In this document: in pieces, positions 12,080 to 40,940 of the stretch | Layout: each line of letters opens with the position of its first letter | Numbering within the stretch: position 1 is the first letter of the stretch | From: Brachybacterium saurashtrense | GTDB lineage: Bacteria; Actinomycetota; Actinomycetes; Actinomycetales; Dermabacteraceae | Direction: 5' to 3' | Assembly (NCBI RefSeq): GCF_003355475.1 | Contig: NZ_CP031356.1 | Location: 930,001 to 994,000, forward strand | Length of the DNA: 64,000 bases | Translations under genes and position numbers: made by a program | Notes under the pieces: model-generated | Database searches by the model: none | What the model saw: only the letters and a program-made list of their open reading frames with translations | Told to the model about the DNA's origin: nothing

Positions 12080-12096
12080 CCACCCGTTCCGGGCGG
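12080..12096 (-). promoter_or_regulatory. island regulon box upstream of the GAP/Sap gene
   Basis: On the minus strand CCGCCCGGAACGGGTGG (three departures from TCACC-N6-GGGTGA). TAGAGT (12052-12057) follows after exactly 22 nt and would serve as the -10. Confidence 0.5.
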
Positions 12097-12147
12097 TGCG
12101 CCCCGGTGACGCGACGCGAGCGCGCGATGACGATGGAGAGTCACGAT

Positions 12148-12164
12148 TCACCAGGATCGGGCGA
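12148..12164 (+). promoter_or_regulatory. island regulon box upstream of DUF1269 gene 1
   Basis: TCACCAGGATCGGGCGA, 76 bp before the ATG. The flank GATCGGGCGAAGC resembles the one before the HdeD-like gene (GAATCGGGCGAAGC). The -10 is unclear (CAGCCT at a 23-nt gap). Confidence 0.45.
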
Positions 12165-12240
12165 AGCCCCGTGGAGGGGTGACGGCCCAGCCTGATGGTG
12201 AGTCCTGCAGGGCTCGTCCGATATCGACCGAGGAGCATCC

Positions 12241-12738
12241 ATGGCACAGGCCACATTGACCGTCTGGAAGTTCGGCACCCCGGGCGGCGCCGAAGACGCA
12301 TCGTCCACCTTGAAGGAACTGGCCAAGCAGAACCTGATCACCATTCATGATGCCGCGTACGTGACATGGGCGCCCGACAAGAAGAAGCCCAAGACCCATC
12401 AGCTCAACTCGGTGGTGGGGCGCGGAGCGTTGGGCGGAACCTTCTGGGGCCTGCTGTTCGGCCTGATCTTCTTCGTGCCGCTGCTCGGCGCCGCCGTCGG
12501 TGCGGCGACCGGAGCTCTGGCCGGCACGCTGACCGACGCCGGAATCGATGATTCGTTCATCAACCAGGTGCGAGACCAGGTCACCCCCGGAACGTCCGCA
12601 CTCTTCCTGATGTCCTCGGACGCCGTGATCGACAAGGTGAAGGACGAGCTGGCGGGACACGATCCCGATGAGCTGATCTTCACCAACCTGAGCGGTGAGC
12701 AGGAAGCGGCGCTGCGCCAGGTGTTCGCTCAGGACTGA
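12241..12738 (+). CDS. DUF1269 domain-containing membrane-associated protein
   Basis: 165 residues of unknown function. The N-terminal ferredoxin-like part (TLTVWKFGTPGGAEDASSTL) is followed by KKKPKTHQ and a glycine-rich hydrophobic hairpin (GTFWGLLFGLIFFVPLLGAAVGAATGALAG, residues ~66-95), then a soluble C-terminus with ...VTPGTSALFLMSSDAVIDKV. This is the usual length and layout of DUF1269 proteins, which often lie in stress clusters with sulfatases and SHOCT proteins. ATG 12241 has GAGGAG 6 nt upstream. A paralog with the same architecture lies at 27645-28133. A hairpin terminator follows at 12750. Confidence 0.85.
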   Translation: MAQATLTVWKFGTPGGAEDASSTLKELAKQNLITIHDAAYVTWAPDKKKPKTHQLNSVVGRGALGGTFWGLLFGLIFFVPLLGAAVGAATGALAGTLTDAGIDDSFINQVRDQVTPGTSALFLMSSDAVIDKVKDELAGHDPDELIFTNLSGEQEAALRQVFAQD

Positions 12739-12749
12739 CCGACGCGCAG

Positions 12750-12783
12750 AGGTGAAGGGGTGCTCCGGTGCGCCCCTTCACCT
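12750..12783 (+). terminator. hairpin after DUF1269 gene 1
   Basis: Perfect 11-bp stem AGGTGAAGGGG/CCCCTTCACCT with a 12-nt loop, 11 nt after the stop. No T-run follows. The next regulon box begins 5 nt later. Confidence 0.65.
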
Positions 12784-12788
12784 GCATC

Positions 12789-12805
12789 TCACCTGCCGCG
12801 GGTGA
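12789..12805 (+). promoter_or_regulatory. island regulon box upstream of LAL regulator 1
   Basis: TCACCTGCCGCGGGTGA matches the consensus in all eleven fixed positions. TAGCAT (12828-12833) follows after exactly 22 nt. The site suggests that LAL regulator 1 controls itself or is controlled by the other LAL. Confidence 0.6.
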
Positions 12806-12865
12806 TGGCGGCCGTCGCGAGCCTTCCTAGCATGTGTGACGAATTGCACATCCGAGGGGGTGCGA

Positions 12866-15598
12866 ATGGGCCGCGGACCGTCCGGGCATCTTCAGGCCGA
12901 CTCGCCGTACGTCGCTGTCCGGGGCGTTGCGCCGCCGGGCGAGGCCGCACCTCGCTCTCCAGGCACGCCGGGTGACGCTCACGGTGTCCCAGCTATTGGG
13001 CGGGATGATGTCGCCTCCGCGACGCCTCATCTTCCTCGTACGCTTGTCCCTCGGCGCCGCTACTGGGCCCGATTGGATCGAGCTGCGACACAGTCCGTGA
13101 CGGTCGTCATCGCTCCCGCAGGCGCTGGCAAGAGCATCGGCACGATCGGGTGGTTGCGCCGCGATGGACGCGAACCTGACGAGCTGTGGATCCATGCTGA
13201 TTCGACGTGGGACTGCGAACGGTTCCGGGCCCTCCTGGATTTCGCCGCGCGCGCGGACGGACCACGGCGCATCGTCGTCGACGATGCTCATCGCCTTCCC
13301 TCGGAGAGCTTCCGTCTGCTCGGCGAGCGGCTCACTCATCACCCCGACACTCTCCGGATGCTGCTGCTGAGCCGCTGGGACCTTCCTCTGGCCACGCTCG
13401 TGCCCGAGCTTCTCGGCCACTACTCGGCCCTCCGGGGGGACGTGTTGCGGACCGATGATGAGGAGACCGCTTCTCTGGTGCGCGCCCACGCACCGACCGC
13501 GGAGTCTTCGGCCGTGGAGGTGATCAGCACCTTTGCGCAGGGCTGGTGCGCGCCGATAGTGCTCACCGCTCGTGTCCTGGGGGCGGCACAGGTCTCGACC
13601 GATGCCGTGCATCGCTACGCGAATGCGAACGCCGGAGGCGTCGATCAGGTGGTCAACGAGGTGTTCGCGACGTTGAGACCGGACGAGCGGCACCTGTTGC
13701 TCTGCACAGCATCGGAGGAGATCCTCACTCCTCGGGCCGCGATCCATCTCACACGAGACCCTCGAGCCGGCGACGCGTTGGACAGACTGGCTGCGACCGG
13801 GCTGCTCGTCCTACGGATCGGTGACGCGGCGGACTCGAGCTCTGGGAACGTCGGTGACGAGAGTCGATACATGGTCCACCCGCTCCTGCGGGAAGTGGTG
13901 CGACGCAGGCTCCTGCACGGCGGCGTCGACGTAGTCCGCGCCCAGGCGACCGTGTCCCGCGCCGTGGCACTGGACGTCTCCCATGGTGACGGGGGACGGG
14001 CGTTCGAACGGCTCGTGGCCGTGAACGAGATCGGGCGGGCCACGGAGCTGCTCGGCAACGAGGGACTCAGGATGGTGATGCGGGGCGAGGGCCACGCGGT
14101 CGCAGACTTCGTCCGCTGCCATCCCGAGGAGGTCCACGTCGATCCGCGGACCTGGTTCGCCATCGCCCTGGACAGGTGGATGGAGGATGACCTCGAGGCA
14201 GCGCTGGGGTGGATGGAGCTCATCGTGCAGGACGGCGCATCGAATGATCCGGGCAGCGACGATCTGGCATCGGTGTGCATCGGCCTGATGCGTGCCCGGC
14301 TCGGGATCGGCTCTCCGATGGAGGCGCTCGATGCTGCACAGAAGGTCCTCACCAGGGTCGACCCTGGACGCCAGCAGCTCTGGCCACAGCTCCTCACAGA
14401 AATGGGCAGTCTGCAGAACTGGGTCGGTGACCTCGATGGCGCAGAAGCGCACCTGACCCGAGCTGTGGAATGCGGCCAGCAGCGGGGACTGTCTCAGCTC
14501 GCCGCGGAGGCCACCTCTCAGCTCGCCATCACGCAGATGATGGCCGGACGGGAGGCCGCTGCGCACCAGCTGGCAGTGGAGACTCTGTGCATTCTGGACA
14601 CCACTCACGGAGGCGGTTCGCGTTTCACGAGGGCCAGGGCGGTCATGGTCCGCACACTGGTCCAGCTGTGGGCGGCCCCGGGACAGGTCGAATCGTCTGA
14701 GCCGGGCGGCGCCGCTGAGGAGGTGCCGGCATCGGACCCTTGCTCCAGGTTCTGGCTCCGGCTCTGCGAGGCACGGCGGTCTCTGGTCGACGGGACCCCG
14801 GCGGACGCGGAGCGCATACTGTCTACTCCACTGTCAGCTCCGGTGGCGCAGGCCCAGCTGCCTGAGCATCTTCAGATCGTGATTCTGGTCGAGCACGCGC
14901 TTCTCGCGACTCTTGCTGCGGATCGCGATCAACTCGCGAGCCTCGAAGCCCGCCTGGCGGAGCTCGGAAGCTCCGGGGAAGCACTGTTCGTGCGCGGCCT
15001 GAGGCATGATCTCGCCGGAGACCGGCACGCCGCAGCGGCAGACTTCGAGACTGCGTCCGAAGAGCAGTTCCGCGCGCAGCCCCCCGGCCGTGCCCTCTGC
15101 CTCGCGAGCAGAGCCCAGCTCCTGAACGCCGCGGGCCAGGAGGAGCAATCACTCAGGATGCTCTCCGAAGCGCTGCGCATCACCGAGGCGCGACAGATCG
15201 CGGTGCCTTTCCACGGCTGGATCCGGCAGGGCACTCCGATGGGCCATCTGCTGCTCAGGTTGCGCACACTGGACGGTGCAGCGGCGAGAAACTGGCTGGA
15301 TGCCCTGGCGTCGTCGGCTGCGGGGACGTCCGATGCGGTAGCGCGTTTCGCACCGAGAACGGCCACACCCCGGGAACGGGCCGTCGCCACGACGACGGTC
15401 GTGCGCCCTGCACTGAGTCCGCGAGAGCGCGACGTGCTCAATGAGCTCGCCCGGGGTGCGACCTACGCCGATATCGCCGCGGCGCTCTTCGTGTCCGAGA
15501 ACACCGTGAAGACACATGTCTCGAGCCTCTACGGGAAGCTCGCGGTGTCCCGCCGCAGCGACGCGCTCGCTGCGGCGCGGAGCATGAATCTCCTGTGA
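12866..15598 (+). CDS. LAL-type LuxR family ATPase transcriptional regulator 1
   Basis: Large MalT-like regulator of 910 residues. A P-loop (APAGAGKS, residues 83-90, Lys89) and a Walker-B-like RRIVVDDAHRL open a STAND-type ATPase domain, a long helical repeat region follows, and a C-terminal LuxR HTH ends the protein (LSPRERDVLNELARGATYADIAAALFVSENTVKTHVSSLYGKL..., last ~60 residues). ATG 12866 is preferred over GTG 12836 because GAGGGGG lies 5 nt upstream. Residues 1-60 look unstructured (Pro/Gly-rich). Its own promoter carries the regulon box, making it a prime candidate for the regulator of the 17-bp sites. The inducing ligand is unknown. Confidence 0.88.
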   Translation: MGRGPSGHLQADSPYVAVRGVAPPGEAAPRSPGTPGDAHGVPAIGRDDVASATPHLPRTLVPRRRYWARLDRAATQSVTVVIAPAGAGKSIGTIGWLRRDGREPDELWIHADSTWDCERFRALLDFAARADGPRRIVVDDAHRLPSESFRLLGERLTHHPDTLRMLLLSRWDLPLATLVPELLGHYSALRGDVLRTDDEETASLVRAHAPTAESSAVEVISTFAQGWCAPIVLTARVLGAAQVSTDAVHRYANANAGGVDQVVNEVFATLRPDERHLLLCTASEEILTPRAAIHLTRDPRAGDALDRLAATGLLVLRIGDAADSSSGNVGDESRYMVHPLLREVVRRRLLHGGVDVVRAQATVSRAVALDVSHGDGGRAFERLVAVNEIGRATELLGNEGLRMVMRGEGHAVADFVRCHPEEVHVDPRTWFAIALDRWMEDDLEAALGWMELIVQDGASNDPGSDDLASVCIGLMRARLGIGSPMEALDAAQKVLTRVDPGRQQLWPQLLTEMGSLQNWVGDLDGAEAHLTRAVECGQQRGLSQLAAEATSQLAITQMMAGREAAAHQLAVETLCILDTTHGGGSRFTRARAVMVRTLVQLWAAPGQVESSEPGGAAEEVPASDPCSRFWLRLCEARRSLVDGTPADAERILSTPLSAPVAQAQLPEHLQIVILVEHALLATLAADRDQLASLEARLAELGSSGEALFVRGLRHDLAGDRHAAAADFETASEEQFRAQPPGRALCLASRAQLLNAAGQEEQSLRMLSEALRITEARQIAVPFHGWIRQGTPMGHLLLRLRTLDGAAARNWLDALASSAAGTSDAVARFAPRTATPRERAVATTTVVRPALSPRERDVLNELARGATYADIAAALFVSENTVKTHVSSLYGKLAVSRRSDALAAARSMNLL

Positions 15599-15655: not shown

Positions 15656-15672
15656 CCACCTGAATCGGGCGA
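15656..15672 (+). promoter_or_regulatory. island regulon box upstream of the HdeD-like gene
   Basis: CCACCTGAATCGGGCGA, then a possible -10 CACGAT (15696-15701) after 23 nt. Confidence 0.45.
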
Positions 15673-18309: not shown

Positions 18310-18326
18310 TCACCCCAACTGGGTGA
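18310..18326 (+). promoter_or_regulatory. island regulon box between the divergent SulP genes
   Basis: TCACCCCAACTGGGTGA, a consensus match. On the plus strand GAGAGT (18349-18354) follows after 22 nt, putting the predicted start of transcription on the ATG at 18361. On the minus strand AAGACT (18282-18287) also lies at 22 nt. Confidence 0.6.
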
Positions 18327-18360: not shown

Positions 18361-20157
18361 ATGCAGGAGGAGCGGACGAACGTATCCCGGGCATATCTCG
18401 CTGGCAGAAGATGGCTGCGCGGCATCCGCCCGGAGCGGAGACACCTGCGCGCGGACACTGTCGCCGCGATGCCGAGCGCCGTCTCCAGCGTCCCCGACGG
18501 CATGGCCTCGGCGGCGCTGATCGGCGTGAGCCCGGTCGTCGGGCTGTACTCGAGCATCGTGGGACCTGTGTTCGGAGGCCTGACCACGAGCACCCGCATG
18601 ATGATCGTCTCGACGACGACCGCAGCCGCTCTGGCCGCCGCCTCCGCGCTGGAAGGGGTGCCGCCGTCCGATCGGCCCGCCGCGCTGTTCCTGCTCACGA
18701 TCATCGCCGGCGCGCTGATGATCGGAGCGGGCCTGGCACGCCTGGGTCGCTACACCCGTTTCGTCTCGCATTCTGTGATGACCGGGTTCCTGACGGGCGT
18801 CGCGGCAAGCATCATCTTCGGGCAGCTCTCTGACCTGGCGGGGGCGGAGACATCCGGTGACTCGAACATCGCCGAGGCGCTGGACCTGCTCCTGCATCTG
18901 GGACGGGTGGACCCGGCTTCGGCTATCGTCGGACTGGCCACTCTGGCTATCCTCTTCGGGCTCAAACGCACCCGGGCGTCGTCCTTCAGCGCGTTGCTGG
19001 CTCTGCTCCTGCCCACGCTCGCCATGGTGCTGTTCGGGCTGGACAGCGTCGCCCAGGTGCGGGACGGCGGAGCGATCCCCCGCGGGATTCCGCTGCCGGC
19101 CCTTCCGGAGCTTCGGATGCTGTCCTTCGAACTGGTCGCCGGGGCCGCGGCGGTGACCGTCATCGTGCTGGTGCAGGGTGCGGGGGTGAGCGAGTCCGCG
19201 CCCAATCAGGATGGCTCCCCCTCCAGCATGAACAAGGACTTCATCGGGCAGGGGATCGCAAACGTGGCGGTCGGCATCTTCCGTGGTCAGCCCGTCGGAG
19301 GATCGGTCAGCGGCACGGCACTGAGCCTCGCGATGGGGGCCAGGACGCGGTGGGCGGCCATCATGTCCGGGCTGCTGCTGCTGCCGATCGTGGTTCTCCT
19401 CTCGGGGCTGGTGGGCCTGGTGCCGGTGCCGGTGCTCGCGGGTGTGCTGATCTTCGCTGCGATCGGCGCGATCCGGCCGGGCACCGCAGCCATGATCTGG
19501 CGCACCGGCAAGGCCTCCACGATCGCGATGGTCGCGACTTTCGTCGCCACTCTCTTCCTCCCGGTCGCAGCCGCTGTCGGCATCGGTGTCGCACTGTCGC
19601 TGATCCTGCAGCTGAACCAGGAGTCGATGGATCTGAGGATCGTCCAGCTGACGGCGCAGCCGGACGGGCACTTCCGCGAAGGCCCGGGGCCCACGCGGCT
19701 CACCAGCCATGAGGCGACCGTGCTCGACGTCTACGGGAGCCTCCTGTACGCGGGATCGAAGACGATGCAGAAGCGTCTGCCGGATCCCGCCGGGACCGAA
19801 GGGGCCGCCGTCATCATCCGATTGCGCGGCCGTACAGCGCTGGGTGCGACGTTCTACCGGATGATGGCCGACTACTCCCGGAAGCTCGCCGACACCGGTG
19901 GCCGGCTCTACCTGTCAGGTCTGGAGCCTGAACTGCTCGAACAGGCCCGCCGCGCCGGCGGGATGGACATGAGCGGTCCAGTCCGTGCGCTGCCCGCGAC
20001 GGAGATCCTCGGCGAGTCCACGTGGAAGGCGCTGCATGAGGCCGGCGCCTGGCTGGTCCGGCATCGAACAGATCTTCGCTCACCCGGGACGGGGGAGGAC
20101 CCCACCGCGGGAGCGGCCGACGATGAGGATCCTCGAACCCGCCCCGAGGATCGGTAG
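18361..20157 (+). CDS. SulP family anion transporter 2 with divergent STAS-like C-terminus
   Basis: 598 residues. The core resembles SulP (LRADTVAAMPSAVSSVPDGMASAALIGVSPVVGLYSSIVGPVFGGL, then GQPVGGSVSGTALSLAMGARTRWAAIMSG), with ~12 hydrophobic segments. The C-terminal cytosolic domain carries a STAS-like pattern (VYGSLLYAGSKTMQKRLPD...AAVIIRLRGRTALGATFYRMM). I chose ATG 18361 because the upstream 54 codons look non-coding and the regulon promoter predicts transcription beginning on this A, giving a leaderless mRNA. It forms an operon with SulP 3 (8-bp gap). The substrate is unproven. Confidence 0.82.
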   Translation: MQEERTNVSRAYLAGRRWLRGIRPERRHLRADTVAAMPSAVSSVPDGMASAALIGVSPVVGLYSSIVGPVFGGLTTSTRMMIVSTTTAAALAAASALEGVPPSDRPAALFLLTIIAGALMIGAGLARLGRYTRFVSHSVMTGFLTGVAASIIFGQLSDLAGAETSGDSNIAEALDLLLHLGRVDPASAIVGLATLAILFGLKRTRASSFSALLALLLPTLAMVLFGLDSVAQVRDGGAIPRGIPLPALPELRMLSFELVAGAAAVTVIVLVQGAGVSESAPNQDGSPSSMNKDFIGQGIANVAVGIFRGQPVGGSVSGTALSLAMGARTRWAAIMSGLLLLPIVVLLSGLVGLVPVPVLAGVLIFAAIGAIRPGTAAMIWRTGKASTIAMVATFVATLFLPVAAAVGIGVALSLILQLNQESMDLRIVQLTAQPDGHFREGPGPTRLTSHEATVLDVYGSLLYAGSKTMQKRLPDPAGTEGAAVIIRLRGRTALGATFYRMMADYSRKLADTGGRLYLSGLEPELLEQARRAGGMDMSGPVRALPATEILGESTWKALHEAGAWLVRHRTDLRSPGTGEDPTAGAADDEDPRTRPEDR

Positions 20158-22026: not shown

Positions 22027-22950
22027 TCACTCCCTCTCTACGGTCGGGAAGACGTGCGTCCAGTCCTCGGCGATGCTCACCGTCACCCAGCCGAGCCGCT
22101 CGGCGACGGTCGTGATCGGCTCGGCGTCCTGGAAGGTCGCCGCTGAGCCCCGGTAGTCGTACTCGTGGTCGGCGTCGTCGTGATCGATGAGGATCGCTAG
22201 ACCTCCGCGTGGGGAGGACTTCGCCCATTCGAGCATCTCGCGGTCGCCGCCCGAGTTGCCCACGGCGATGAGCGGGCGCCGACCCGTCTGGGCCTGGATA
22301 TTGGCGATCTTCGCCGGGCCCTCGTTGGCGGTGCCCATCCGCTGCACCGTCCGGCGCAGGCGCGGGCGGTCAACGTGGGTCCGCGAGAACTCGTAGCCGA
22401 TGATGGTGCCGACGACCAGCTCCGGCGGGATCCCGTACAGGCGCTGGCTGATGCGGCGCACGAACTCGGTCCCTCCGGCGGTGACGAGGCCGACGGTCAC
22501 GTCCCGGGCGCGCAGCTCCTCGATCAGCTCGAGCATCGGCTGGTAGACCACGGAGGTGATGGGCACGTCCTGCGTCGGGTGCCGGTACCGCTCGACGAAG
22601 TCATCGACCGCCGCCCCGAACTCCTCCGGGGTGGCGCCGTCGAACAGTGCAGCCAGGGCCACAGCGACCTCCGCAAGACCCATCTCGCCGATCGCCTGCA
22701 TATCGGCGCTGAGTACGGCGGCGAACTCGGGCCGCGTCGCGAGCGAGGGGTCCTGCACAGCCCGCTGCTCCAGCGCGTCGAGGAAGAAGTCGTACTGGAC
22801 ACATGTCGGCTTCTCGCACCACATCGTGCCGTCGTTGTCGAGGTAGGCGACGCGCTCCTTGACCGGCACGTCCGCGATCCCGTCGAGGAAGCTCAAGATC
22901 GCGTTCCTCGTCGGCCCGGGGCGCCAGGAAGGAAGTCTCTGCGTGGTCAT
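22027..22950 (-). CDS. HAD superfamily phosphatase, last gene of the sulfatase operon
   Basis: 307-residue haloacid-dehalogenase-fold hydrolase, probably a phosphatase. Motif I is YLDNDGTMW (near residue 38), motif II VTAGG (Thr after VTVGL), and motifs III/IV AVGNSGGDREML. A helical cap lies between motifs I and II. ATG 22950 overlaps the FGE stop (ATGA), so translation would be coupled. It is the only gene of the four-gene unit whose frame is intact. The longer open frame upstream lies inside the FGE gene and is not used. The phosphorylated substrate is unknown; its link to sulfate metabolism rests on context only. Confidence 0.8.
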   Translation of the reverse strand: MTTQRLPSWRPGPTRNAILSFLDGIADVPVKERVAYLDNDGTMWCEKPTCVQYDFFLDALEQRAVQDPSLATRPEFAAVLSADMQAIGEMGLAEVAVALAALFDGATPEEFGAAVDDFVERYRHPTQDVPITSVVYQPMLELIEELRARDVTVGLVTAGGTEFVRRISQRLYGIPPELVVGTIIGYEFSRTHVDRPRLRRTVQRMGTANEGPAKIANIQAQTGRRPLIAVGNSGGDREMLEWAKSSPRGGLAILIDHDDADHEYDYRGSAATFQDAEPITTVAERLGWVTVSIAEDWTHVFPTVERE

Positions 22951-23911
22951 CGGTGCTCCTCGTCGGTGGATCGGGACCACGCACAGCGGAATCCGACGTG
23001 GCTCATCCCGGTGTCGATCATCTGTGGTCTTCGAGCCGCAGGCCGGTACCGAAGGCAGTACGTGTCCGCGCACAGATCCGAGCCGCCCTTGATCACCTTG
23101 CGGGGCACGCGGAACTGGGGCTGCGCCGGGTCGTAGCTGTCCTCGACCGCGCCGCCGCGCGGATCCCCCGAGGCGCAGCAGCTCGAGGCGGCCGCGTCCG
23201 GGTGCTGCGCGCTCCACCAGTCCTCGGTCCACTCCCAGACGTTGCCGGCCATGTCGTGGAGGCCGTAGCCGTTGGCGGGGAAGGAGCCGACGGGCGCGGT
23301 GCGCTTGAAGCCCGACTCACCGGTCGAGCGCCAGGGGAAGTCGAGACCGTCCCAGGTGTTGGCCATGATCCGGCCGTCCGGACGACTTCGTCACCCCAGG
23401 TGAACTGCGCCTTGTCGAGACCGCCACGGGCAGCGAACTCCCATTCGGCCTCAGTGGGCAGGCGCGCGCCGACCCACTGGGCGTAGGCGTGTGCGTCCTC
23501 CTAGGCGATATGGACTACAGGATGATCGCCGCGGTCAGCGACCGTCGAGGGGAATCCTTCGGGGCGGGCCCAGCTGGCACCCGGCTTCCAGTGCCACCAC
23601 TGGCTCAGGTGTCGCAGATCCACAGGGCCGGACGTCGGGGTGAACACCATCGAGCCGGGCAGGAGCCTCTCCCGCGGCACTCCGGGGAAGTCATCCGGAT
23701 CCAGCGGACGTTGCGCGACAGTGCGATAGCCGGAGTCCTCGACGAAGGCCGCGAACTGGCTGTTGGTCACCTGGTGGCGGTCGATGCCGAAAGCGTCGAC
23801 CCTCACGGGGTGCGCCGGGGCCTCTTCCGGGTAGTGGCGGTCGGAGCCCATGGTGAAGGTGCCGCCGTTCAGGACGACCACGTCATGGGTGCTCCGCAGA
23901 GTCTCGGTCAT
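22947..23911 (-). pseudogene. formylglycine-generating enzyme (SUMF1/EgtB-type), broken by a stop and a frameshift
   Basis: FGE converts the active-site Cys of sulfatases to formylglycine. The first part (23501-23911) reads VVLNGGTFTMGSDRHYPEEAPAHPVRVDAFGIDRHQVTN; a TAG at 23501-23503 then interrupts it. After the stop, in the same frame, comes [28 protein letters not shown] one-base loss near 23372-23390 shifts to the frame of [39 protein letters not shown] and GGSDLCADTYCLRYRPAARRPQ. The two catalytic-type cysteines in the last motif are kept. The length of 965 nt is one short of whole codons. The ATG overlaps the methyltransferase stop and the TGA overlaps the HAD ATG. It is either recently inactivated or carries sequencing errors. 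Confidence 0.85.
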
Positions 23912-28203: not shown

Positions 28204-28220
28204 TCACCCCTACTGGGTGA
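28204..28220 (-). promoter_or_regulatory. island regulon box upstream of DUF1269 gene 2
   Basis: On the minus strand TCACCCAGTAGGGGTGA matches the consensus; GAGGAT (28176-28181) follows after exactly 22 nt. Confidence 0.55.
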
Positions 28221-28501: not shown

Positions 28502-30853
28502 TCAGTCCATCGCGGTGGCCAGCCTGAGCCGGTCCATTCCAGTCGGCTCCTCGAAGTCCCCGAACTCGAAGGTGATCGAATCGATGGTGCCGGTGAACTC
28601 GAAGAGTCCGCGATCCTTGTAGTCGTCGCAGACGGGCGACCGACTGTCTTGTCCGACGTCGAAGCACTCGGCTCCCGAGCGCATCGGAATCTGTCGTGCC
28701 ACGCGCGTTGCGGCGACTTGCTCCCCGTCGACGAAGAGAGCCGCCGTGGCCGGGCTGCCTGGTGCGGCAGCATCGGGCAGGACGTCCACCACTATGGTGT
28801 GGTGGCCTTGGGGAAGCGGCTCCTCGGCGATAGCGTCGTAGCGCTCGAGGCCGAAGAAATTGTAGTGATAGCGGAGCTTGCCTTCCCACAGGAATACCGA
28901 GAACCCGGCGGCGTCGCCACCAAGTGCGAACAGCACGCCCTCGGCGCCGCCTTCCGGGACTTCGATAGGAATCGTCGCTTTCCAGGGGACGCTAATGAAC
29001 TTCGGGCCCGATCCCTCCGGCTGTCTGATCATCCCCGGATAGAAGGTGACCTTCTTGCGTCCGTGGTAGAAGCTGGGCCTCAGTGTGACATCAAGACGCT
29101 CAGCGAAGCGGTCGTCAAGCGGCATGACCTGGTACTTCGCGGCCTCCGTGAGGAATAGGTCTTGCAGCTCCTTGAGCTTGTCGGGTTTCTCGGCCGCGAG
29201 GTCGACGGACTGGCTGAAGTCTCTTGAGATGTCGTAGAGCTCCCAGGAATCCTCCTCGAAGGAGAAGGTCCCGGACGTCTCCCAGGGCAGGCGTCCGTGT
29301 CGACAGGACGCCATCCAGCCTTCGTGATAAATGCCGCGATTGCCCATCATTTCAAAGTACTGCGTCTCGTGGCGGCCCGGAGCCTCTGCGTCGGCGAAAG
29401 AGTAGGCGAAGCTTGTGCCCTCGATCGGCCGCTGGGCTACACCATTGACTTCGACCGGCTCGCGGATGCCGACTACCTCCATGATCGTGGGCATAACATC
29501 GACGACATGATGGAATTGGGAGCGCACCTCACCCCGGCCGGTGATGCGATTTGGCCAGGAGACGATCATGGAGTTGCGGGTCCCACCGAAGTGGGAGGCG
29601 ATCTGTTTGGTCCACTGGAACGGGGTGTCTCCGGCGTGCGCCCATCCGGCGGCGTAGTGCGGGGAGGTTCCGGGCAGGCCCCAGGTATCGAGGAAGCCCA
29701 TGGCCTCGTCAATCGTGGGCTGTATGCCGTTGAGGCTCATGATCTCATTCGGCGTGCCAAGCAGAGAGCCTTCGCCGGAAGAGCCGTTGTCACCGATGAT
29801 GTAGATGACGAGAGTGTTGTCCAGTTCGCCCAGCTCATCATAAGCATCGATGACGCGACCGACCTCGTGGTCAGTATGTTCGAGAAAGTCCGCGAAGTTC
29901 TCGGCCTGGCGGGCAAAAAGCTGCTTGTGATCGGCAGGCTGGGAGTCCCATGACGGGATCTGTTCCGGCCGTTCGGTGAGGTTCGTGCCGTCGGGAATGA
30001 TGCCCATCCTCAGCTGGTTCTCGTGCACCTGGCGACGGTACTCGTCCCATCCCATGTCGAACCGCCCGGCGTTGCGGCCGCGCCAATCTAGCGGCGGCTG
30101 GTGCGGGGCGTGGGCGGCACCGGTGGAGAAGTACGTGAACACGGGGCGGCCCGGAGCGATCGTCTTCTGCTCCCGCAGCCAGGTGATGCAGTCGTCGGCG
30201 AGATCGCGCTGCAGCTGGTAGCCATCCTCGGGCCGCGAGGGCGCCTCCACCGGCGTGGTGTTGCGGATCAGCGACGGGTAGAACTGGTCGGTCTCCCCGG
30301 CAATGAAGCCGTAGAAGTAGTCGAACCCCTGTCCGGTAGGCCAGTTGCTGAATGGGCCGGCGGGGCTCGTCTCGTTGTCGGGAACGTTGTGATTCTTGCC
30401 CCACCAGCCGCAGGTGTAGCCGGCCTGCTTCAGAAGCTCACTGACCGTGGCGCAGCTCTTGGGGATGATGCCGCAATAACCGGGATAGCCGGTGGCCATC
30501 TCTTGGATCACGCCGGCGCCGACTGAGTGGTGGTTGCGTCCGGTCAACATCGCCGCCCGGGTCGGAGCACACAGAGCAGTGGTGTGGAACTGGTTGTAGA
30601 AAAGCCCGCGGTTATGCATCCGTTCCGCATTGGGCATGCGCACCAGGCCGCCGTTGACGCTCGGCCAGCCGAAGCCGACGTCGTCGATCAGGACCAGCAG
30701 GATGTTCGGGGCGCCGGCGGGCGCCTTCTTCGGCGGCGGGAAGTCCGGCTCGGAGTCGGCGGCGTAGGTGTTGACTGTCGCATTCGGGTACGACCACTCC
30801 GGCTCGGGCAGGTGATAGCGGTCTTGGTTCAGCGGAAACTCTTCTGTAGTCAT
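28502..30853 (-). CDS. arylsulfatase B, intact type I sulfatase
   Basis: 783-residue sulfatase, the long ~780-aa type typical of actinobacteria. Metal-site residues lie in NILLVLIDDVGFGWPSVNGG. The modification motif is CAPTRAAMLTGRN (C-x-P-x-R), so activity needs formylglycine formation. Other core motifs are GWWGKNHNV, STGAAHAPHQPP and IIGDNGSSGEG. The C-terminal ~180 residues form a beta-rich domain seen in this subgroup. There is no signal peptide. ATG 30853 sits where the regulon promoter predicts transcription to begin, so the mRNA may be leaderless. G+C is visibly lower than in neighbouring genes. FGE is broken in this window, so maturation may depend on another copy. Confidence 0.92.
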   Translation of the reverse strand: MTTEEFPLNQDRYHLPEPEWSYPNATVNTYAADSEPDFPPPKKAPAGAPNILLVLIDDVGFGWPSVNGGLVRMPNAERMHNRGLFYNQFHTTALCAPTRAAMLTGRNHHSVGAGVIQEMATGYPGYCGIIPKSCATVSELLKQAGYTCGWWGKNHNVPDNETSPAGPFSNWPTGQGFDYFYGFIAGETDQFYPSLIRNTTPVEAPSRPEDGYQLQRDLADDCITWLREQKTIAPGRPVFTYFSTGAAHAPHQPPLDWRGRNAGRFDMGWDEYRRQVHENQLRMGIIPDGTNLTERPEQIPSWDSQPADHKQLFARQAENFADFLEHTDHEVGRVIDAYDELGELDNTLVIYIIGDNGSSGEGSLLGTPNEIMSLNGIQPTIDEAMGFLDTWGLPGTSPHYAAGWAHAGDTPFQWTKQIASHFGGTRNSMIVSWPNRITGRGEVRSQFHHVVDVMPTIMEVVGIREPVEVNGVAQRPIEGTSFAYSFADAEAPGRHETQYFEMMGNRGIYHEGWMASCRHGRLPWETSGTFSFEEDSWELYDISRDFSQSVDLAAEKPDKLKELQDLFLTEAAKYQVMPLDDRFAERLDVTLRPSFYHGRKKVTFYPGMIRQPEGSGPKFISVPWKATIPIEVPEGGAEGVLFALGGDAAGFSVFLWEGKLRYHYNFFGLERYDAIAEEPLPQGHHTIVVDVLPDAAAPGSPATAALFVDGEQVAATRVARQIPMRSGAECFDVGQDSRSPVCDDYKDRGLFEFTGTIDSITFEFGDFEEPTGMDRLRLATAMD

Positions 30854-30888: not shown

Positions 30889-30905
30889 TCACCCAGTTTG
30901 GGTGA
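30889..30905 (-). promoter_or_regulatory. island regulon box upstream of arylsulfatase B
   Basis: On the minus strand TCACCCAAACTGGGTGA, full consensus. GACACT (30861-30866) follows after 22 nt, predicting the transcript start at 30853-30854, on the ATG. Confidence 0.6.
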
Positions 30906-31026
30906 GGGTGGGGCCGAGCCCCGGGAAGTGGTGAATCGGCCCAGCGTCGCCCCGGGTTCGGTGACGGAAGGTCTTGACCGGCGGGGGCCCACAGGCGCGA
31001 TCATCGCGAAGCGCGCGCCTGGGAGC

Positions 31027-31386
31027 CATGCGGCGGGTGGAGACGCCGGCGAGGTAGCAGTCGACGACCACGGTGACCAGCACGGTCTCGGCCCGCTCGC
31101 GACGCTCCAGCATCCAGTGGGGGACATAGCTGCCCGAACGGAGCGTGGGCACAGCAACCTCGATCGTGCCGACGCGCGTGTCGAGCTCGCCGTGGCGGTA
31201 GCCGTTGCACTGGGCGCTCCGGGTCCCGCCGGGCGGGCCGTACTCCGCGCCGGTGACGAGGTCGGCATCCGCGGACAGCAGCATGTTGATCGTGCTCTGC
31301 AGCAGATCACGCATCGGATCCGGTGACGCTTCGGACAGAGCGTGGCTGAGCAGGCCAGCAGGGTCGACAGTAAGAGGAGCGGTCAT
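31027..31386 (-). pseudogene. IS256-family transposase remnant (N-terminal ~120 residues)
   Basis: Residues 1-120 resemble the N-terminus of IS256/mutator transposases: LLQSTINMLLSADADLVTGAEYG, CNGYRHGELDTRVGTIEVAVPTLRSGSYVPHWMLERR and VVDCYLAGVSTRRM. The similarity stops there. The DDE catalytic region and the remaining ~300 residues are absent, replaced by the arylsulfatase B promoter region. No terminal inverted repeats were found. It is a dead fragment that records an old insertion or deletion event. Confidence 0.82.
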
Positions 31387-33420: not shown

Positions 33421-36063
33421 GTGGGGGCCAGGGTTGCAGGAGGGGGGCTCTTCGTCGCGCCCTCGAGGTTGCGCCCGCCCCGGCTCCCGAAGGCCTTCGT
33501 GAGTCGGAGGCGTCTGACAGAGGATGTGCTCGGCCAGCATCGGATCACTCTGGTCTCTGCACCCGCAGGTTCAGGGAAGACGATGCTCGTCGCGGACTGG
33601 GCACGCCGCAGGATCTCGGACGGCGACGACGTCGCCTGGCTGACTGTGGAGGGCGTGGACGATCGTCCGTTCGAGTTCTGGTCCGCGCTTCTCCAGGCAT
33701 GCGCCATCGCGTCGGATGATGCGGCAGCCGTCCGGCTTCGTGCGATGACACCCCCGCGTCGGGATTTCGATGCACGCTTCATCGTCGCGATCGCGCAGGC
33801 CATCGGAAGGACATCGCTTGGCGCCGTGGTGCTGGACGATGTCCACCGACTGCACCATCCCGCCGTCCTGGCCGGCCTCGATCTGCTCCTCACCGAGATG
33901 CCGCCCGCCACGTCGATCATTCTTCTGTCGCGCTCAGCGCCGAGGATCTCCCTGCACGCGCGCGTCGCGGGCGACTCGTACAGCGAGGTGAGCGGCGCTG
34001 ATCTCGCCTTCACACTTGACGAGGCCGTGGCGCTGTTCGAGCGCGTCACTGACCGGATCGAGGTCTCCGATGTCTCCCGCCTGCTCGCGAGGACGGAGGG
34101 GTGGGCAGTCGGGCTCGGCCTGGCTGCCTTCTCGATGAGAAGCGTCGCCGATCCGGCTGTACTCATCGACATGTTCGAAGGGAGCGATCACCGGGTCGCG
34201 GACTACCTCTTCGCCGAGATCATCCAGAAGCTCTCCGCGGAGCGCTACGAATTCCTCCTCGCGACGTGTGTTCCGCGTCAGCTGACCGTGGAACTGGCAG
34301 CCCATCTCTCCGGACGCGATGATGCAGGAGAAGAACTCGATGAGTTGTGTCGACTGAACGCGCTCGTCACTCAGTCCGATGATGGCTCCTGCTACCGCTA
34401 TCACAGCCTGTTGAGGAGCTATCTGATCGCGACGCTGAATCGCAGGGACATCAGCGGCCTGCGACACCAGCATGTTCGTTCCGCACTGTGGTTCGAGAAT
34501 TATGGAGATCCTGCATCGGCTATTGCGCATGCTTTCTCTTCTCGTGATGGCGACCTGCTGAACGACCTGCTCAGCCATCACGGCCCGCATCTGATCCTCT
34601 GCGGGCAGTCGGGCTGGATCCTCAGTCTCGTCGGGGCGCCGCCTCGGTCCGGGAAGATGGATCCTCGAATCATCCTCGTGGCGGCACTCGCCGCACTGGA
34701 GATGTCAGAACCAGACATGGCCGATGCGTGGCTGGGCCTTCTCGCTGACAGGGATCCGTTCCCGGAGGATCTTCGGTCGGCGGCTCTGCTCTCGGCGACG
34801 ATCGTGCTCAGGTCTCTCTTCGGTGGTGACGTCTCCACGGCGTCGGCGCAGACCACCGTCCTTGACGTCCCCCCTACCGGGGACAGCGACGTGGACCTGA
34901 TCGTTCTCACCGCGCGTCCCCCATGCCGCATGCGCACCGGAGATTTCTCGGGTGCGGTCAGCGATCTGGAGAAGGTGCTCAGGATCGCGACCGCACGTGA
35001 GTACCAGCACAGCGCGTTGTATGCGATATCACAGCTGGCAGGGATGCACGGAGCCCTCTGCGAATGGGGCCCAGCCAGGTACTGGGCACGGCGGGCCATC
35101 GAGTTCGCCCGCAGCAATGGCTGGGGAGAGTCGGTTCGTCTCGCCCATGCTCACCTGGTCGCCGCATGGACAGCTTTCCAGACCGGTGATTCGGCGGAGC
35201 TGTTCGAGCACTCCGAGAGCGGGGCGCGCGCGCTGGTCGGCGCCCATAACGTGGAGATAGGAATCGGCCTTCGAAGCTTGCAGGCGTTGTCGCAGTTCGA
35301 TCGGGGATCAGGCGCCGAACTCGCGGAGGCTGCGGCCAGCGTCCATCAGATCTGGGAGCGCACCAGCGAGGTGGACCAGGTGTCGCCGGCGCTGATCAGT
35401 CAGTCGGCTCCCCAGGAGATCCGTGTTTGCCTGCTCACGGGACACATCGACTGGGCAGAGGCGGCGGCGGACAGGACGCGGCGACGGCTGCCGGGCAGCG
35501 TCGAGGCGGTGCTCACGCACGCTCAGGTTCTCGCAGCTCGGGGACGTGCCGAGGAGGCCGTCATGCACCTCAGGGAATGTCGAGACGGCAGGGTTGCCGT
35601 GCACGCAGCGACGGCGACGGTGACGGCTGATGTGCTCGCTGCTGTTCTTGAGAACGGGCTGGGAAATCACCAGCGAAGCTTCGTGTCGCTCGAGTCGGCT
35701 CTCGAGCGGGCGGCACCTCATTCGTTCAGGCGTCCCTTTCTCGATGCCTGGGATGATGTCCGACCGCTGCTCGCCGCGCATCGGGGCCGCTTTGGTGGGG
35801 CCGAACATTTCGTCGATAGCCTCTTCAGGAATCGGAATCGCTCGGACGTTCGCGATTCGTCACCTGCGGACCGTGCTCTCACCCACCGTGAGCAGTGCCT
35901 TCTGCGCGACCTTCCTGCAATGCTGACCCTCCGCGAGATCGCCGAGGCTCGAGGGATCAGCGAGAACACCGTCAAGACACACGTCCGCTCGATCTATCGG
36001 AAGCTGGGCATCAACAATCGCGCTTCGGCCGTACGGAAGGCGCGCGAGCGCGGCTTGCTCTGA
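33421..36063 (+). CDS. LAL-type LuxR family ATPase transcriptional regulator 2
   Basis: 880 residues. Walker A APAGSGKT (47-54) lies in SRRRLTEDVLGQHRITLVSAPAGSGKTML, a Walker-B-like AVVLDDVHRLHHP follows, then TEGWAVGLGLAAFSMR typical of MalT-like STAND ATPases, a long helical region, and a C-terminal LuxR HTH (LTHREQCLLRDLPAMLTLREIAEARGISENTVKTHVRSIYRKLGINNRASAV). GTG 33421 has GGGAGGGG upstream. The HTH differs from that of LAL 1 within the recognition helix neighbourhood, so the two may bind different sites. It has its own sigma-A-type promoter. Confidence 0.88.
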   Translation: MGARVAGGGLFVAPSRLRPPRLPKAFVSRRRLTEDVLGQHRITLVSAPAGSGKTMLVADWARRRISDGDDVAWLTVEGVDDRPFEFWSALLQACAIASDDAAAVRLRAMTPPRRDFDARFIVAIAQAIGRTSLGAVVLDDVHRLHHPAVLAGLDLLLTEMPPATSIILLSRSAPRISLHARVAGDSYSEVSGADLAFTLDEAVALFERVTDRIEVSDVSRLLARTEGWAVGLGLAAFSMRSVADPAVLIDMFEGSDHRVADYLFAEIIQKLSAERYEFLLATCVPRQLTVELAAHLSGRDDAGEELDELCRLNALVTQSDDGSCYRYHSLLRSYLIATLNRRDISGLRHQHVRSALWFENYGDPASAIAHAFSSRDGDLLNDLLSHHGPHLILCGQSGWILSLVGAPPRSGKMDPRIILVAALAALEMSEPDMADAWLGLLADRDPFPEDLRSAALLSATIVLRSLFGGDVSTASAQTTVLDVPPTGDSDVDLIVLTARPPCRMRTGDFSGAVSDLEKVLRIATAREYQHSALYAISQLAGMHGALCEWGPARYWARRAIEFARSNGWGESVRLAHAHLVAAWTAFQTGDSAELFEHSESGARALVGAHNVEIGIGLRSLQALSQFDRGSGAELAEAAASVHQIWERTSEVDQVSPALISQSAPQEIRVCLLTGHIDWAEAAADRTRRRLPGSVEAVLTHAQVLAARGRAEEAVMHLRECRDGRVAVHAATATVTADVLAAVLENGLGNHQRSFVSLESALERAAPHSFRRPFLDAWDDVRPLLAAHRGRFGGAEHFVDSLFRNRNRSDVRDSSPADRALTHREQCLLRDLPAMLTLREIAEARGISENTVKTHVRSIYRKLGINNRASAVRKARERGLL

Positions 36064-36071: not shown

Positions 36072-36088
36072 TCTCACCGGTTTCAGAG
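36072..36088 (+). promoter_or_regulatory. weaker island regulon box upstream of the DUF4203-like gene
   Basis: TCACCGGTTTCAGAGGA keeps the left half but has three changes in the right half. GACTCT (36111-36116) follows after exactly 22 nt. Confidence 0.35.
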
Positions 36089-36732: not shown

Positions 36733-36735
36733 GAG

Positions 36736-37312: not shown

Positions 37313-37448
37313 GAGCCGAGGAGCCTGTGTGCGCAGGAGTGCTTCCTCTGTCAACGGGACTGCCGGGCCAGGGGAGTGGCCCCGATGGTGGGGCTTCGGG
37401 CAGTGCTGAGGTTCGCGGAGGAGAACGGGCGGGGGGCGGGAGAATGTC

Positions 37449-38701: not shown

Positions 38702-38821
38702 ACTCGTTCCGCGGCGGCTCGATGGCGAGCCATCGTGCGTCCAGACGACCCCGACTCGTCGTCGAGTGCACGGCGGGGCGCCCATCGCACGGCCATCAGC
38801 CCGTGAGGACCGACCATGTGC

Positions 38822-38838
38822 TCACCCTTCGGAGGTGA
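38822..38838 (+). promoter_or_regulatory. island regulon box upstream of cardiolipin synthase
   Basis: TCACCCTTCGGAGGTGA; TAGCGT (38861-38866) follows after exactly 22 nt, predicting a ~20-nt leader that holds the ribosome site. Confidence 0.6.
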
Positions 38839-38893
38839 ACCGTAGCTGACTCTCTTCCCATAGCGTCCGGAGGACTCGAGGAGAGGTGTGACG

Positions 38894-40351
38894 ATGTCCG
38901 AGTCTCTGACAGTCCTGGCGGCCCTGCTGGCAGTGGGCGTCGCGCTCGCTCATGTGGTGTTCTGCATCGCAGCTCTCGGAGTCATCCCGGGACGGTCGAA
39001 GCCATCGTCGGGCATGGCATGGCTCATCCTCATCCTGGCGGTCCCCGTCGTGGGCGCTGTGGGGTACCTGCTGCTCGGCAACACGACCGTCGGACGCCGG
39101 CGGCGCGGCATCCAACGTGACGTCGACGAGCAGCTCAGGCTCCGCCACCACTCCGGTGGCACCGAGGAGGGGTGCGGTGCGGATACGTGGAGTGGCATCT
39201 CCCGATTGAACCAGGAGCTCGGCGGGCTGCCTCTCATCGGCGGGAACGGTGCCGATATCCTCGACGACCAGCTCAAGTGCATGGCAGCGATGTGCCGAGA
39301 GATCGCCCGCGCGCAAAGGTCAGTGCACGTGGAGTTCTACATCGCTGCGTGGGACCGGGCGACCGCCGATTTCTTCGACGAGCTCGTGGCGGCGGCCGAA
39401 CGCGGAGTCGCTGTGCGCCTGTTGTTCGATCATCTGGGGACACGAGGCATCCCGGGGTACCCCGAGTTCCTGCGACGCCTCGATGCATCCCCGATCCGAT
39501 GGGAGAAGATGCTCCCGATCGCGCCGCTGAAGGGGCAGACCCGGCGACCGGATCTCCGTAACCATCGCAAGATTCTGGTGGTGGATGGCCAGGTCGCATT
39601 CACCGGCTCCCAGAATCTCATCGAGCCCGGGTACAACAAGCCGAAGAACCATCGCCTCGGTCGCGAATGGGTGGACCTGATGGTGCGACTGCAGGGTCCA
39701 GTGGTCCGGCAGCTCGAGACGGTCTTCGCCACGGATTGGTTCGCCGAGACGGACGAGGATCTGCGTGAAGAGTTGAGGACTGCAGAGCCCGTACCCGACG
39801 ACGTCGACTGCCAAGTCGTCCCGAGCGGTCCCGGCTACGTCACGGAGAACAATCTGCGGATGTTCAACAGCCTGATCTATGCCGCCACCTCGAAGCTGTC
39901 CATCACCAGCCCATACTTCGTCCCCGACGAGTCGCTGCTCTATGCGGTGACGACAGCGGCGCGTCGCGGCGTGGAGGTGGAGCTCTTCGCGAGCGCGGAG
40001 GCGGATCAGTTCATGGTCCACCACGCCCAGCGCTCGTACTATCGCGCCCTTCTCGACGCGGGGGTGCGGATCTGGCTCTATCCCGCACCCGCAATCCTTC
40101 ACGCGAAGCACGTGACAGTGGACGGCGCCGTTGCGGTCGTGGGTTCCAGCAACATGGACATGAGGTCCTTCGCCCTGGATTACGAGGTGGTGGTCGTCAT
40201 GCACGATGCCGCGGTCGTGTCCCGTCTTGCAGAGGTGCAGGACAACTACCGCGAGCTCTCCAGCGAGCTGACTCTCGCCGGGTGGCGGCGTCGCAGCTGG
40301 TGGGGAGCCTACATGGACAACGTCATGCGCCTGACCGCTGCGCTCCAGTAG
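38894..40351 (+). CDS. cls: cardiolipin synthase, phospholipase D superfamily
   Basis: 485-residue membrane-bound enzyme that condenses phosphatidylglycerol-type lipids to cardiolipin. Two N-terminal membrane helices (residues 5-60) form a PLDc_N segment. They are followed by two HKD motifs: NHRKILVVDG (His224) and HAKHVTVDGAVAVVGSSNMD (His403), both with the H-x-K-x4-D spacing. YFVPDESLL and the C-terminal FALDYEVVVVMHD region are as in bacterial ClsA. ATG 38894 is preferred to GTG 38888 because GAGGAGAGG lies ~7 nt upstream. It is controlled by the island box at 38822. Membrane remodelling under stress fits the island theme. Confidence 0.9.
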   Translation: MSESLTVLAALLAVGVALAHVVFCIAALGVIPGRSKPSSGMAWLILILAVPVVGAVGYLLLGNTTVGRRRRGIQRDVDEQLRLRHHSGGTEEGCGADTWSGISRLNQELGGLPLIGGNGADILDDQLKCMAAMCREIARAQRSVHVEFYIAAWDRATADFFDELVAAAERGVAVRLLFDHLGTRGIPGYPEFLRRLDASPIRWEKMLPIAPLKGQTRRPDLRNHRKILVVDGQVAFTGSQNLIEPGYNKPKNHRLGREWVDLMVRLQGPVVRQLETVFATDWFAETDEDLREELRTAEPVPDDVDCQVVPSGPGYVTENNLRMFNSLIYAATSKLSITSPYFVPDESLLYAVTTAARRGVEVELFASAEADQFMVHHAQRSYYRALLDAGVRIWLYPAPAILHAKHVTVDGAVAVVGSSNMDMRSFALDYEVVVVMHDAAVVSRLAEVQDNYRELSSELTLAGWRRRSWWGAYMDNVMRLTAALQ

Positions 40352-40372
40352 GAGGCGAGGGCGCTCTCGTGA

Positions 40373-40717
40373 TCAGCGGTTCAGGGCTTTGGCTTTGATC
40401 GTCTCGAACTCTGTGTCATCGATGATGCCGGCATCGCGCATCGATACGGCCTTGGCGATCTCATCGGAGATCGAGGCGTTGCCGAGCGCGTTGTCGAGGA
40501 CGGCGGACCGCTCTGCCATGCCGCTGCCGCGAAGGAAGAGGTACAGGACCGCAGTGAGGATCGGCAGGAACACCATCGCGATCATCCATAGCGCCTTCGC
40601 CCAGCCCGGCAGGGCGTGGTCGCGGAAGATATCGCTGATGATGCTGACGAGCACTACGAGGTATGCCAGGAAGACGAAGCAGATCATGACGATGACGAGG
40701 ACGTCCCAGAAGTTCAT
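40373..40717 (-). CDS. PLDc_N plus SHOCT domain membrane protein
   Basis: 114 residues. Two membrane helices of PLDc_N type (FWDVLVIVMICFVFLAYLVVLVSIISDIFRDHALPGWAKALWMIAMVFLPILTAVLYLFLRG) are followed by a SHOCT tail (SDEIAKAVSMRDAGIIDDTEFETIKAKALNR). It probably acts as a small membrane partner; the function is unknown. ATG 40717 has GGAAGGG upstream. It is convergent with cls (21 bp) and divergent from the DUF6325 gene; each has its own regulon box in the 286-bp shared region. Confidence 0.8.
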   Translation of the reverse strand: MNFWDVLVIVMICFVFLAYLVVLVSIISDIFRDHALPGWAKALWMIAMVFLPILTAVLYLFLRGSGMAERSAVLDNALGNASISDEIAKAVSMRDAGIIDDTEFETIKAKALNR

Positions 40718-40776
40718 GAGTGAACCCTTCCGGTGGGGTGATCGTCTGATCCCGGTGGCCACGTACTCGCTTGCAC

Positions 40777-40793
40777 TCACCCACGGAGGGTGA
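40777..40793 (-). promoter_or_regulatory. island regulon box upstream of the PLDc_N/SHOCT gene
   Basis: On the minus strand TCACCCTCCGTGGGTGA, full consensus. The hexamer at 22 nt is CGGGAT (40749-40754), a weaker -10. Confidence 0.55.
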
Positions 40794-40923
40794 GTTGCGC
40801 ACGGAGCGTCCGCGTGCGTGTGGGTCAGCGGGGACGTCGAGGATTGCTGGACCGACAGTGTCCGTCTCCGGGGCGCTCGCGGGGGCCGGACGGCGCGAGC
40901 GCGTGGCCTTCCGCTGCGCCGGG

Positions 40924-40940
40924 TGGCCCGAAGGGGGTGA
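40924..40940 (+). promoter_or_regulatory. island regulon box upstream of the DUF6325 gene
   Basis: TGGCCCGAAGGGGGTGA: right half perfect, left half degenerate. TAGCGT (40963-40968) follows after exactly 22 nt, the same hexamer and spacing as before cls. Confidence 0.5.

Follow-up and report, generated by a model that had tools for sequence, protein, structure and literature searches.

A 17-bp palindrome as the putative operator of a MalT-like LAL regulator in a genomic island of Brachybacterium saurashtrense

Introduction

In Actinoplanes sp. SE50/110, 17 start sites within one 51-gene region are preceded by the motif 5'-TCATCC-5nt-GGATGA-3', at a distance of 34.4 ± 1.0 nt from the mapped start, and deletion and overexpression show that a MalT-like regulator of the LAL family (large ATP-binding LuxR-type regulators) activates this region, with malT itself rising together with its own regulon (Droste et al. 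2020, PMC7567727). Here, we describe a near-identical palindrome, TCACCC-N5-GGGTGA (17 bp; hereafter the box), in an island of about 30 kb of Brachybacterium saurashtrense, contained in a 64,000-nt stretch (positions 930001-994000 of the single-contig, 3.72-Mb genome; hereafter the window), and we argue, with a probability of roughly 85%, that the box is the operator of an activator of the MalT-like LAL type encoded by the island itself, most likely LAL1, possibly LAL2 or both. Because the Actinoplanes switch has already been described, we regard the Brachybacterium boxes as part of a genuine, widespread control system and not as a new kind, and the view of a preliminary description of the window that no operator with this layout had been described has to be abandoned. 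What is added here is the spread of the operator and the island that it would control, with its sulfatases and its SulP, DUF1269, SHOCT and DUF6325 proteins; no published island regulon with TCACCC-N5-GGGTGA was found in the literature searched, most subscription journals lying outside that search.

The window boxes share with the Actinoplanes motif the palindrome and the 5-nt spacer, both fitting TCAYCC-N5-GGRTGA, and the distances to the start site are similar (34.4 nt to the mapped start there, 35 to 36 nt to the predicted start here). As described in the available text, the Actinoplanes region also resembles the island in containing a pair of MalT-like regulators along with many functionally unannotated genes, and in being only partly present in relatives. 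The 2 systems differ in one half-site base, which is T in Actinoplanes and C in the window, and in gene content: the genes named for Actinoplanes are amino-acid enzymes, permeases and others, whereas the window has the sulfatase/SulP/DUF1269/SHOCT set, and "sulfatase", "sulfate" and "DUF1269" are absent from the main text of PMC7567727 as available.

Three other systems are relevant. The boxes of Escherichia coli MalT, GGA(T/G)GA, are described as a repeated core hexanucleotide (available discussion of PMC7567727), and the island resembles this system in LAL architecture, in a related half-site, in the position of the box near −35 and in the helix core, the C-terminal helix-turn-helix (HTH) of E. 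coli MalT containing ATTIKTHIRNLYQKLG, with the core TIKTH, and that of LAL2 ENTVKTHVRSIYRKLG, with TVKTH. Unlike E. coli MalT, both window LALs score well under the cut-off of the NCBIfam MalT equivalog (NF003420, cut-off 537; LAL1, 73.7 bits; LAL2, 213.6 bits), which makes them MalT-like but not MalT by that model, and no maltose genes were recognised in the island. The BldM group I box of Streptomyces venezuelae, TCACcCgnncGgGTGA, is a 16-bp palindrome (PMC4125116, in part) with half-sites identical to those of the window box, but its spacer is 4 nt rather than 5 nt and it is bound by an approximately 200-residue response regulator rather than a LAL; no linked response regulator with receiver and GerE domains was found in the window, where the 2 LALs give the only GerE matches. 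Finally, SCO6993 of Streptomyces coelicolor, likewise a LAL that binds palindromes, is a negative regulator, for which no consensus could be predicted (PMC9628970), and, unlike the window boxes, its sites quoted in the available text do not contain TCAYCC-N5-GGRTGA.

Results and discussion

The box is concentrated in the island

Perfect copies of the box number 4 in the genome, and all 4 lie in the island (18310, 28204, 30889 and 40777); when at most one mismatch is allowed, 7 of the 12 genomic matches are in the island, whereas allowing 2 mismatches brings the count (163) close to background (118 for the reversed control). The form TCACC-N7-GGTGA occurs 11 times in the genome, including 6 copies in the island and 3 elsewhere; the remaining 2, at 9484 and 10036, fall within tRNA-Gly genes of the window and were set aside. 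All 4 perfect boxes of the window are of the C/C form, and no T form is present there.

Boxes were scored with a composite matrix comprising a 20-bp box, a gap of 21 to 23 nt and the −10 region; its training set was 151 oriented sites, taken from 83 related loci of other genomes (defined below). It detected 12 distinct island sites scoring at least 15 (12148, 12789, 15656, 18310, 20080, 26748, 28204, 30889, 36736, 38822, 40777 and 40924), the sole window site of this strength outside the island being the tRNA-Gly match at 10036 (15.8). In 400 kb of control sequence, taken as 20 stretches from this genome (approximately 11% of its length), no score of 13 or above occurred, the maximum being 12.7. 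First-order Markov copies of the island (n = 200) held on average 0.245 oriented sites scoring at least 15 vs 15 oriented sites observed, and the highest single score, 22.6, was reached in one copy.

That the matches arose by chance, or represent a dispersed repeat in G+C-rich DNA, is extremely improbable. Such an origin would account for the 2 tRNA-Gly segments, for the Markov copy that attained 22.6 and for the many isolated boxes without a −10 element in other genomes, but not for control scans, permuted half-sites and alternative gaps that all come out near zero, nor for the spacer and flanks of the boxes in related loci, which lack the conservation expected of a repeat.

Eleven of the 13 sites listed in the preliminary description were retained, with composite scores of 15.3 to 27.0 (Table 1). 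The site at 12080 proved weak, scoring below the 400-kb control maximum, and was dropped as a firm site; position 36072 gave no match in the register proposed for it, the best site nearby being 36074, with a composite score of 7.8. The list had also missed the site at 20080 and the second −10 element of the 18310 box, which faces both ways. The gap of exactly 22 nt was found at every position for which it had been claimed except 36072, and the 21- to 23-nt gaps elsewhere, as well as the poor hexamer at 40777, were recovered as described.

Table 1. Boxes and selected features of the island, in window positions
Position	Strand	Feature	−10 hexamer (gap, nt)	Context	Composite score
12080-12096	−	Weak, doubtful box CCGCCCGGAACGGGTGG	TAGAGT (22)	Upstream of SfLAP-family gene	10.7
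12148-12164	+	Box	CAGCCT (23)	Upstream of DUF1269 gene a	17.5
12241-12738		DUF1269 protein a		ATG 12241; query, with protein b, for finding related islands	
12789-12805	+	Box	TAGCAT (22)	Upstream of LAL1 gene, predicted self-activation	25.8
12866-15598	+	LAL1		P-loop APAGAGKS, weak TPR match, C-terminal GerE HTH 55.7-55.9 bits (Pfam), ENTVKTH helix; start codon uncertain	
15656-15672	+	Box	CACGAT (23)	Upstream of DUF308 gene (15729)	17.8
18310-18326	Both	Perfect box	GAGAGT (22) (+); AAGACT (−)	SulP2 (+); SulP1 (−)	27.0 (+); 26.0 (−)
20080-20096	+	Box	GACGAT (22)	Within SulP2 3' end, upstream of SulP3 (ATG 20166)	27.9 (highest in window)
26748-26764	−	Box	GATACT (21)	Upstream of first sulfatase gene	16.2 (−)
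27645-28133	−	DUF1269 protein b		Pfam 125.2 bits; query, with protein a, for related islands	
28204-28220	−	Perfect box	GAGGAT (22)	Upstream of DUF1269 gene b (ATG 28133)	26.6
28502-30853	−	Sulfatase 2		Pfam Sulfatase 182.4 bits	
30889-30905	−	Perfect box	GACACT (22)	Sulfatase 2 promoter	25.7
33421-36063	+	LAL2		MalT-like, P-loop APAGSGKT, GerE HTH 44.7 bits (Pfam), ENTVKTH helix	
36736-36752	+	Box	AATGCT (22)	Upstream of YGGT-like gene (36887)	17.9
38822-38838	+	Box	TAGCGT (22)	Upstream of PLD-domain gene (38888)	20.9
40777-40793	−	Perfect box	No xAxxxT (CGGGAT)	Upstream of SHOCT/PLDc_N gene (ATG 40717)	15.3
40924-40940	+	Box	TAGCGT (22)	Upstream of DUF6325 gene (ATG 41004)	16.8
41892-41917	+	Probable right attachment site of the island		Repeats tRNA-Val 3' end 10292-10317 (26 bp, blastn 96%)	

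Box and −10 hexamer keep a fixed distance, with a start-codon peak at the predicted start site

Among the 21 oriented boxes of the island, a hexamer of the form xAxxxT begins after a gap of 22 nt in 9 cases, compared with 0 to 2 cases for any other gap between 8 and 44 nt. The same preference holds in the related loci, where 295 oriented sites have the hexamer at gap 22 in 76 cases and at gap 23 in 65, as against 1 to 10 for each other gap in this range. When the 148 related-locus sites with at most one mismatch are considered, 129 are accompanied by xAxxxT at 21 to 23 nt on at least one side and 19 are not, the chance expectation being approximately 8% of sites (six chances per site of approximately 1.3% each). 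A G located 2 bases past the palindrome on the promoter side is conserved as well (72% at gap 22 and 84% at gap 23). The first base of the hexamer is T in only 6% (gap 22) and 9% (gap 23) of the related-locus sites, and these contain no conserved −35 hexamer other than the box.

These promoter features bear on the possibility that what binds the boxes is a repressor covering the −35 region instead of an activator. A protein bound over −35 could indeed block the polymerase, and sequence alone is silent on the sign of the regulation. Nevertheless, the lack of a conserved −35 element besides the box and the rarity of T at the first −10 position are as expected of activator-dependent promoters, and the Actinoplanes counterpart activates, as judged by deletion and overexpression (PMC7567727, in part), so that we consider repression very unlikely.

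Start codons were used as a proxy for start sites. At 263 oriented sites with a composite score of at least 20 and an xAxxxT hexamer, several of them from loci of closely related species, the ATG/GTG codons of open frames of at least 60 codons are over-represented at offsets of 6 nt (22 codons) and 7 nt (15 codons) past the hexamer, the remaining 21 offsets between 0 and 22 averaging 4.0; a spike of 44 at offset −2 was excluded as an artefact of the model (T at −7, then a frequent G), and further downstream, in ordinary start-codon territory, counts reach 14. Because taking the T of the hexamer as −7 puts +1 six nt after the hexamer, genes starting there look leaderless. In the island, the SulP2 ATG (18361) coincides with the start site predicted from the 18310 box, and the sulfatase 2 ATG (30853) is 1 nt off that predicted from the 30889 box. 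The box centre is accordingly predicted at about −43 and the 3' end of the box at 35 to 36 nt from +1. The fixed promoter distance with −35 overlap that characterizes the Actinoplanes-type operator is thus found in silico (gap 22 to 23, start-codon peak), and the maintenance of this geometry in distant genomes argues for an operator of a LuxR/NarL-type (GerE HTH) activator near −43, as the preliminary description had suggested.

For individual boxes, 2 further observations can be made. The 26748 box also scores 18.5 on the plus strand, the side without a called gene, and on the minus strand it would lie upstream of the whole run of genes down to the HAD gene (22027). A fragment of a Mutator-family transposase (30889-31314, minus strand) lies immediately upstream of sulfatase 2 and overlaps the sulfatase 2 box.

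The box is conserved in related loci and genomes

The DUF1269-bearing loci analyzed are the best 80 of 201, and 79 of these together with 5 stretches of G024, a genome of the same genus, make up a set of 84. L030, which is on the contig of the G024 stretches L027 and L028, was left out of all locus counts; L036, a near-duplicate of L035, was included in the 84 and then dropped. The perfect palindrome occurs 47 times in the 84 loci (46 without L036), whereas 29 permuted half-sites yield 2 matches, 1 match or, in all other cases, none. Spacers of 1 to 4 and 6 to 11 nt yield no perfect match, gap 5 alone having them. 

In 83 loci, C/C boxes (46), mixed boxes (31) and T/T boxes (13) were found, with a −10 element in 40, 29 and 13 cases, respectively; the exact Actinoplanes motif, TCATCC-N5-GGATGA, is present in 13 copies, all with a −10 element. 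As all 3 forms occur, mostly with a −10 element, we regard the Brachybacterium and Actinoplanes motifs as one family. The form TCATCC-N5-GGRTGA was present in 9 of 22 genomes searched, some of which are box-poor, and is therefore no marker by itself. At a composite threshold of 18, no site was detected in the Cellulosimicrobium, Oerskovia, Streptomyces, cyanobacterial and Chloroflexota loci.

The boxes can be clustered or scattered. In the 5.5-Mb genome of Haloactinopolyspora alba (G047, locus L058), 10 of the 11 perfect boxes are concentrated in 17.4 kb. In G202, 10 perfect boxes are spread over 4 contigs, all 10 with xAxxxT at 21 to 23 nt, and 6 of them adjoin homologues of island proteins (SulP, sulfatase, SHOCT/PLDc_N or DUF6325); the best LAL-type HTH of this genome is on a fifth contig, and 3 of the box contigs carry weaker ones (76 to 84 bits, in frames of 729 to 1383 aa), the distance to a box being 6.5 kb in one case. 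We lean towards a view in which this operator and the MalT-like LALs underlie a regulon, widespread in actinobacteria, of sulfate-ester, anion-transport and envelope-protein genes. Regulator, operators and targets would travel together on islands from one genus to another, and the regulon would survive the dispersal of its genes, as in G202.

Boxes co-occur with LAL regulators

LAL1 and LAL2 are encoded by frames of 910 and 880 aa, respectively, and both have the N-terminal P-loop and C-terminal LuxR-type HTH of the LAL family; of the 13 GerE matches in the genome, they are the only ones in the window. In the 78 DUF1269 loci compared, composite sites scoring at least 18 are present in 22 of the 23 loci with a LAL helix of the form NT[VIL][KRN][TASF][HQ], but in only 2 of 13 with another LuxR HTH, both SRHTVK[TS]Q (L045 and L067), the difference between these 2 classes being significant before any correction for kinship (Fisher test, 1.4e-6); loci without a LuxR HTH in the stretch have sites in 17 of 42 cases. 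Within the family, LAL1 and DUF1269 co-occur in the same 2 of 47 genomes, the window genome and G024, and the other 45 have 0 to 2 perfect boxes each.

A sample of 196 genomes of the class, 98 of which contain a perfect box, gave a similar picture. A LAL-type HTH of at least 86 bits in a frame of at least 880 aa was found in 12 of 13 box-rich genomes (13 of the 17 with at least 6 boxes, G160, G189, G233 and G238 being left out) vs 1 of 17 box-poor genomes, hand-picked among those with 0 or 1 box (Fisher test, 1.9e-6, with the bit-score cut-off, like the helix pattern of the locus comparison, chosen after the lists had been seen and with related genomes that are not independent). The box-rich exception, G140, has a LAL-type HTH of 80 bits cut by the contig end. 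The co-occurrence of boxes with LALs of one helix type points to the island LALs as the likely binders, in agreement with the preliminary description. LAL1 is the first candidate because its own promoter has a strong box (12789), just as malT of Actinoplanes rises with its own regulon.

Besides the post hoc cut-offs, several observations weigh against this assignment. Neither LAL2 nor AI-2E has its own box: no site scoring at least 15 is present just upstream of AI-2E (32144), LAL2 (33421), TM198 (36169) or the open reading frame (ORF) at 37518, and SfLAP has only the weak 12080 box, so that the proposal of one activator switching on nearly the whole island is somewhat too strong, although most promoters do share the box. 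In G059 (Streptomyces, L101), G062 (Rhodococcus, L088) and G063 (Actinacidiphila, L042), the DUF1269 stretch has 0 or 1 site and 5 or 6 perfect boxes are located elsewhere. Of 28 perfect boxes in the class sample, a −10 element accompanies only 9, which suggests that many isolated boxes are probably due to chance. The box-poor exception, G242, has a LAL-type HTH of 100 bits in an 899-aa frame (C1:39050-39232) and one perfect TCACCC box; the TCATCC forms predicted for it were not found, and its operator may differ. Co-variation of the helix (KTH/KSH) with C or T at half-site position 4 was unsupported (p = 0.42). The TVKTH helix is not unique to LALs, being shared by the GerE proteins L139, L140 and L146 of the same genome, and LAL1 and LAL2 are both candidate binders. 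For Actinoplanes, too, binding by MalT is inferred, the available text of PMC7567727 mentioning no gel shift, footprint or chromatin immunoprecipitation.

The same 3 GerE proteins are relevant to another candidate binder, a short BldM/NarL-type response regulator from the core genome. Its appeal lies in the identity of the BldM group I half-sites with those of the box (PMC4125116, in part) and in the likeness of their TVKTH helix to the EDTVKTH of a Streptomyces BldM candidate. Yet we consider such a binder unlikely: BldM uses a 4-nt spacer, at which the 84 loci give no perfect match vs 47 at gap 5, the 45 family genomes devoid of DUF1269 and LAL1 are nearly devoid of perfect boxes, and the box-rich genomes tested nearly all carry strong LAL-type HTHs. 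The BldM candidate itself is a receiver-GerE protein of Streptomyces actuosus (L132:2084-2749, plus strand) with a WhiB-family match in the same 3.2-kb stretch. We presume it to be BldM from its sequence and the bldM-whiD adjacency; the label is unconfirmed by NCBIfam, in which BldM was not among the 25 families listed of 98.

A model of the switch

With an island LAL as the binder, the switch could work as follows. By analogy with MalT, the LAL would be a STAND-type switch protein, which, once activated, would bind the 2 inverted GG(A/G)TGA half-sites of the box, the centre of which is near −43. Bound at this class-II-like site, it would substitute for the −35 element and recruit RNA polymerase to a poor −10 element (xAxxxT, the first base seldom T) located 22 or 23 nt downstream. 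LAL1 would activate its own gene through the 12789 box, and several targets would be leaderless. Judging by the gene families, the regulon would concern sulfate-ester and anion handling and envelope proteins.

The strict rule of box, spacer, −10 element and start codon would link a poorly understood class of very large regulators with specific targets across many actinobacteria. It would also place orphan families (DUF1269, DUF6325, SHOCT, DUF308 and YGGT) under one control with sulfatases and SulP permeases, making a common role testable. The regulator and its promoter may, moreover, form a portable pair.

Setting and gene content of the island

The island extends from a tRNA-Val gene (10244-10318) on the left to the 26-bp repeat on the right (Table 1), such a second copy of a tRNA 3' end at the far edge of an island being what integration at a tRNA gene usually leaves; no Pfam match to an integrase was found among the island proteins scanned. 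The G+C content at third codon positions is lower inside the island (mostly 0.77 to 0.90) than in the flanks (0.90 to 0.98). The gene set includes 2 LAL regulators, 3 SulP permeases, 2 sulfatases, FGE-like pieces and 2 DUF1269 proteins, as well as SfLAP, DUF308, AI-2E, YGGT-like, PLD, SHOCT and DUF6325 proteins. Nothing was taken as a defence system among 8 island proteins analyzed with PADLOC, the match of the PLD protein to DrmC models being read as due to its PLD domain. A DUF1269 search of plasmids returned 23 records, all below 60% identity and mostly from haloarchaea.

A stretch of approximately 494 bp with flavodoxin-family coding sequence lies near the left edge of the island (10712-11205) and again near the right edge (41909-42399); the 2 copies are 99% identical, and the right one lacks its 5' part. 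FGE (22947-25416, minus strand) is divided between 2 ORFs, each corresponding to a different portion of the Pfam profile, and the methyltransferase and sulfatase 1 of the same minus-strand operon also appear divided over neighbouring frames, as if the operon were decaying or the assembly contained frame errors.

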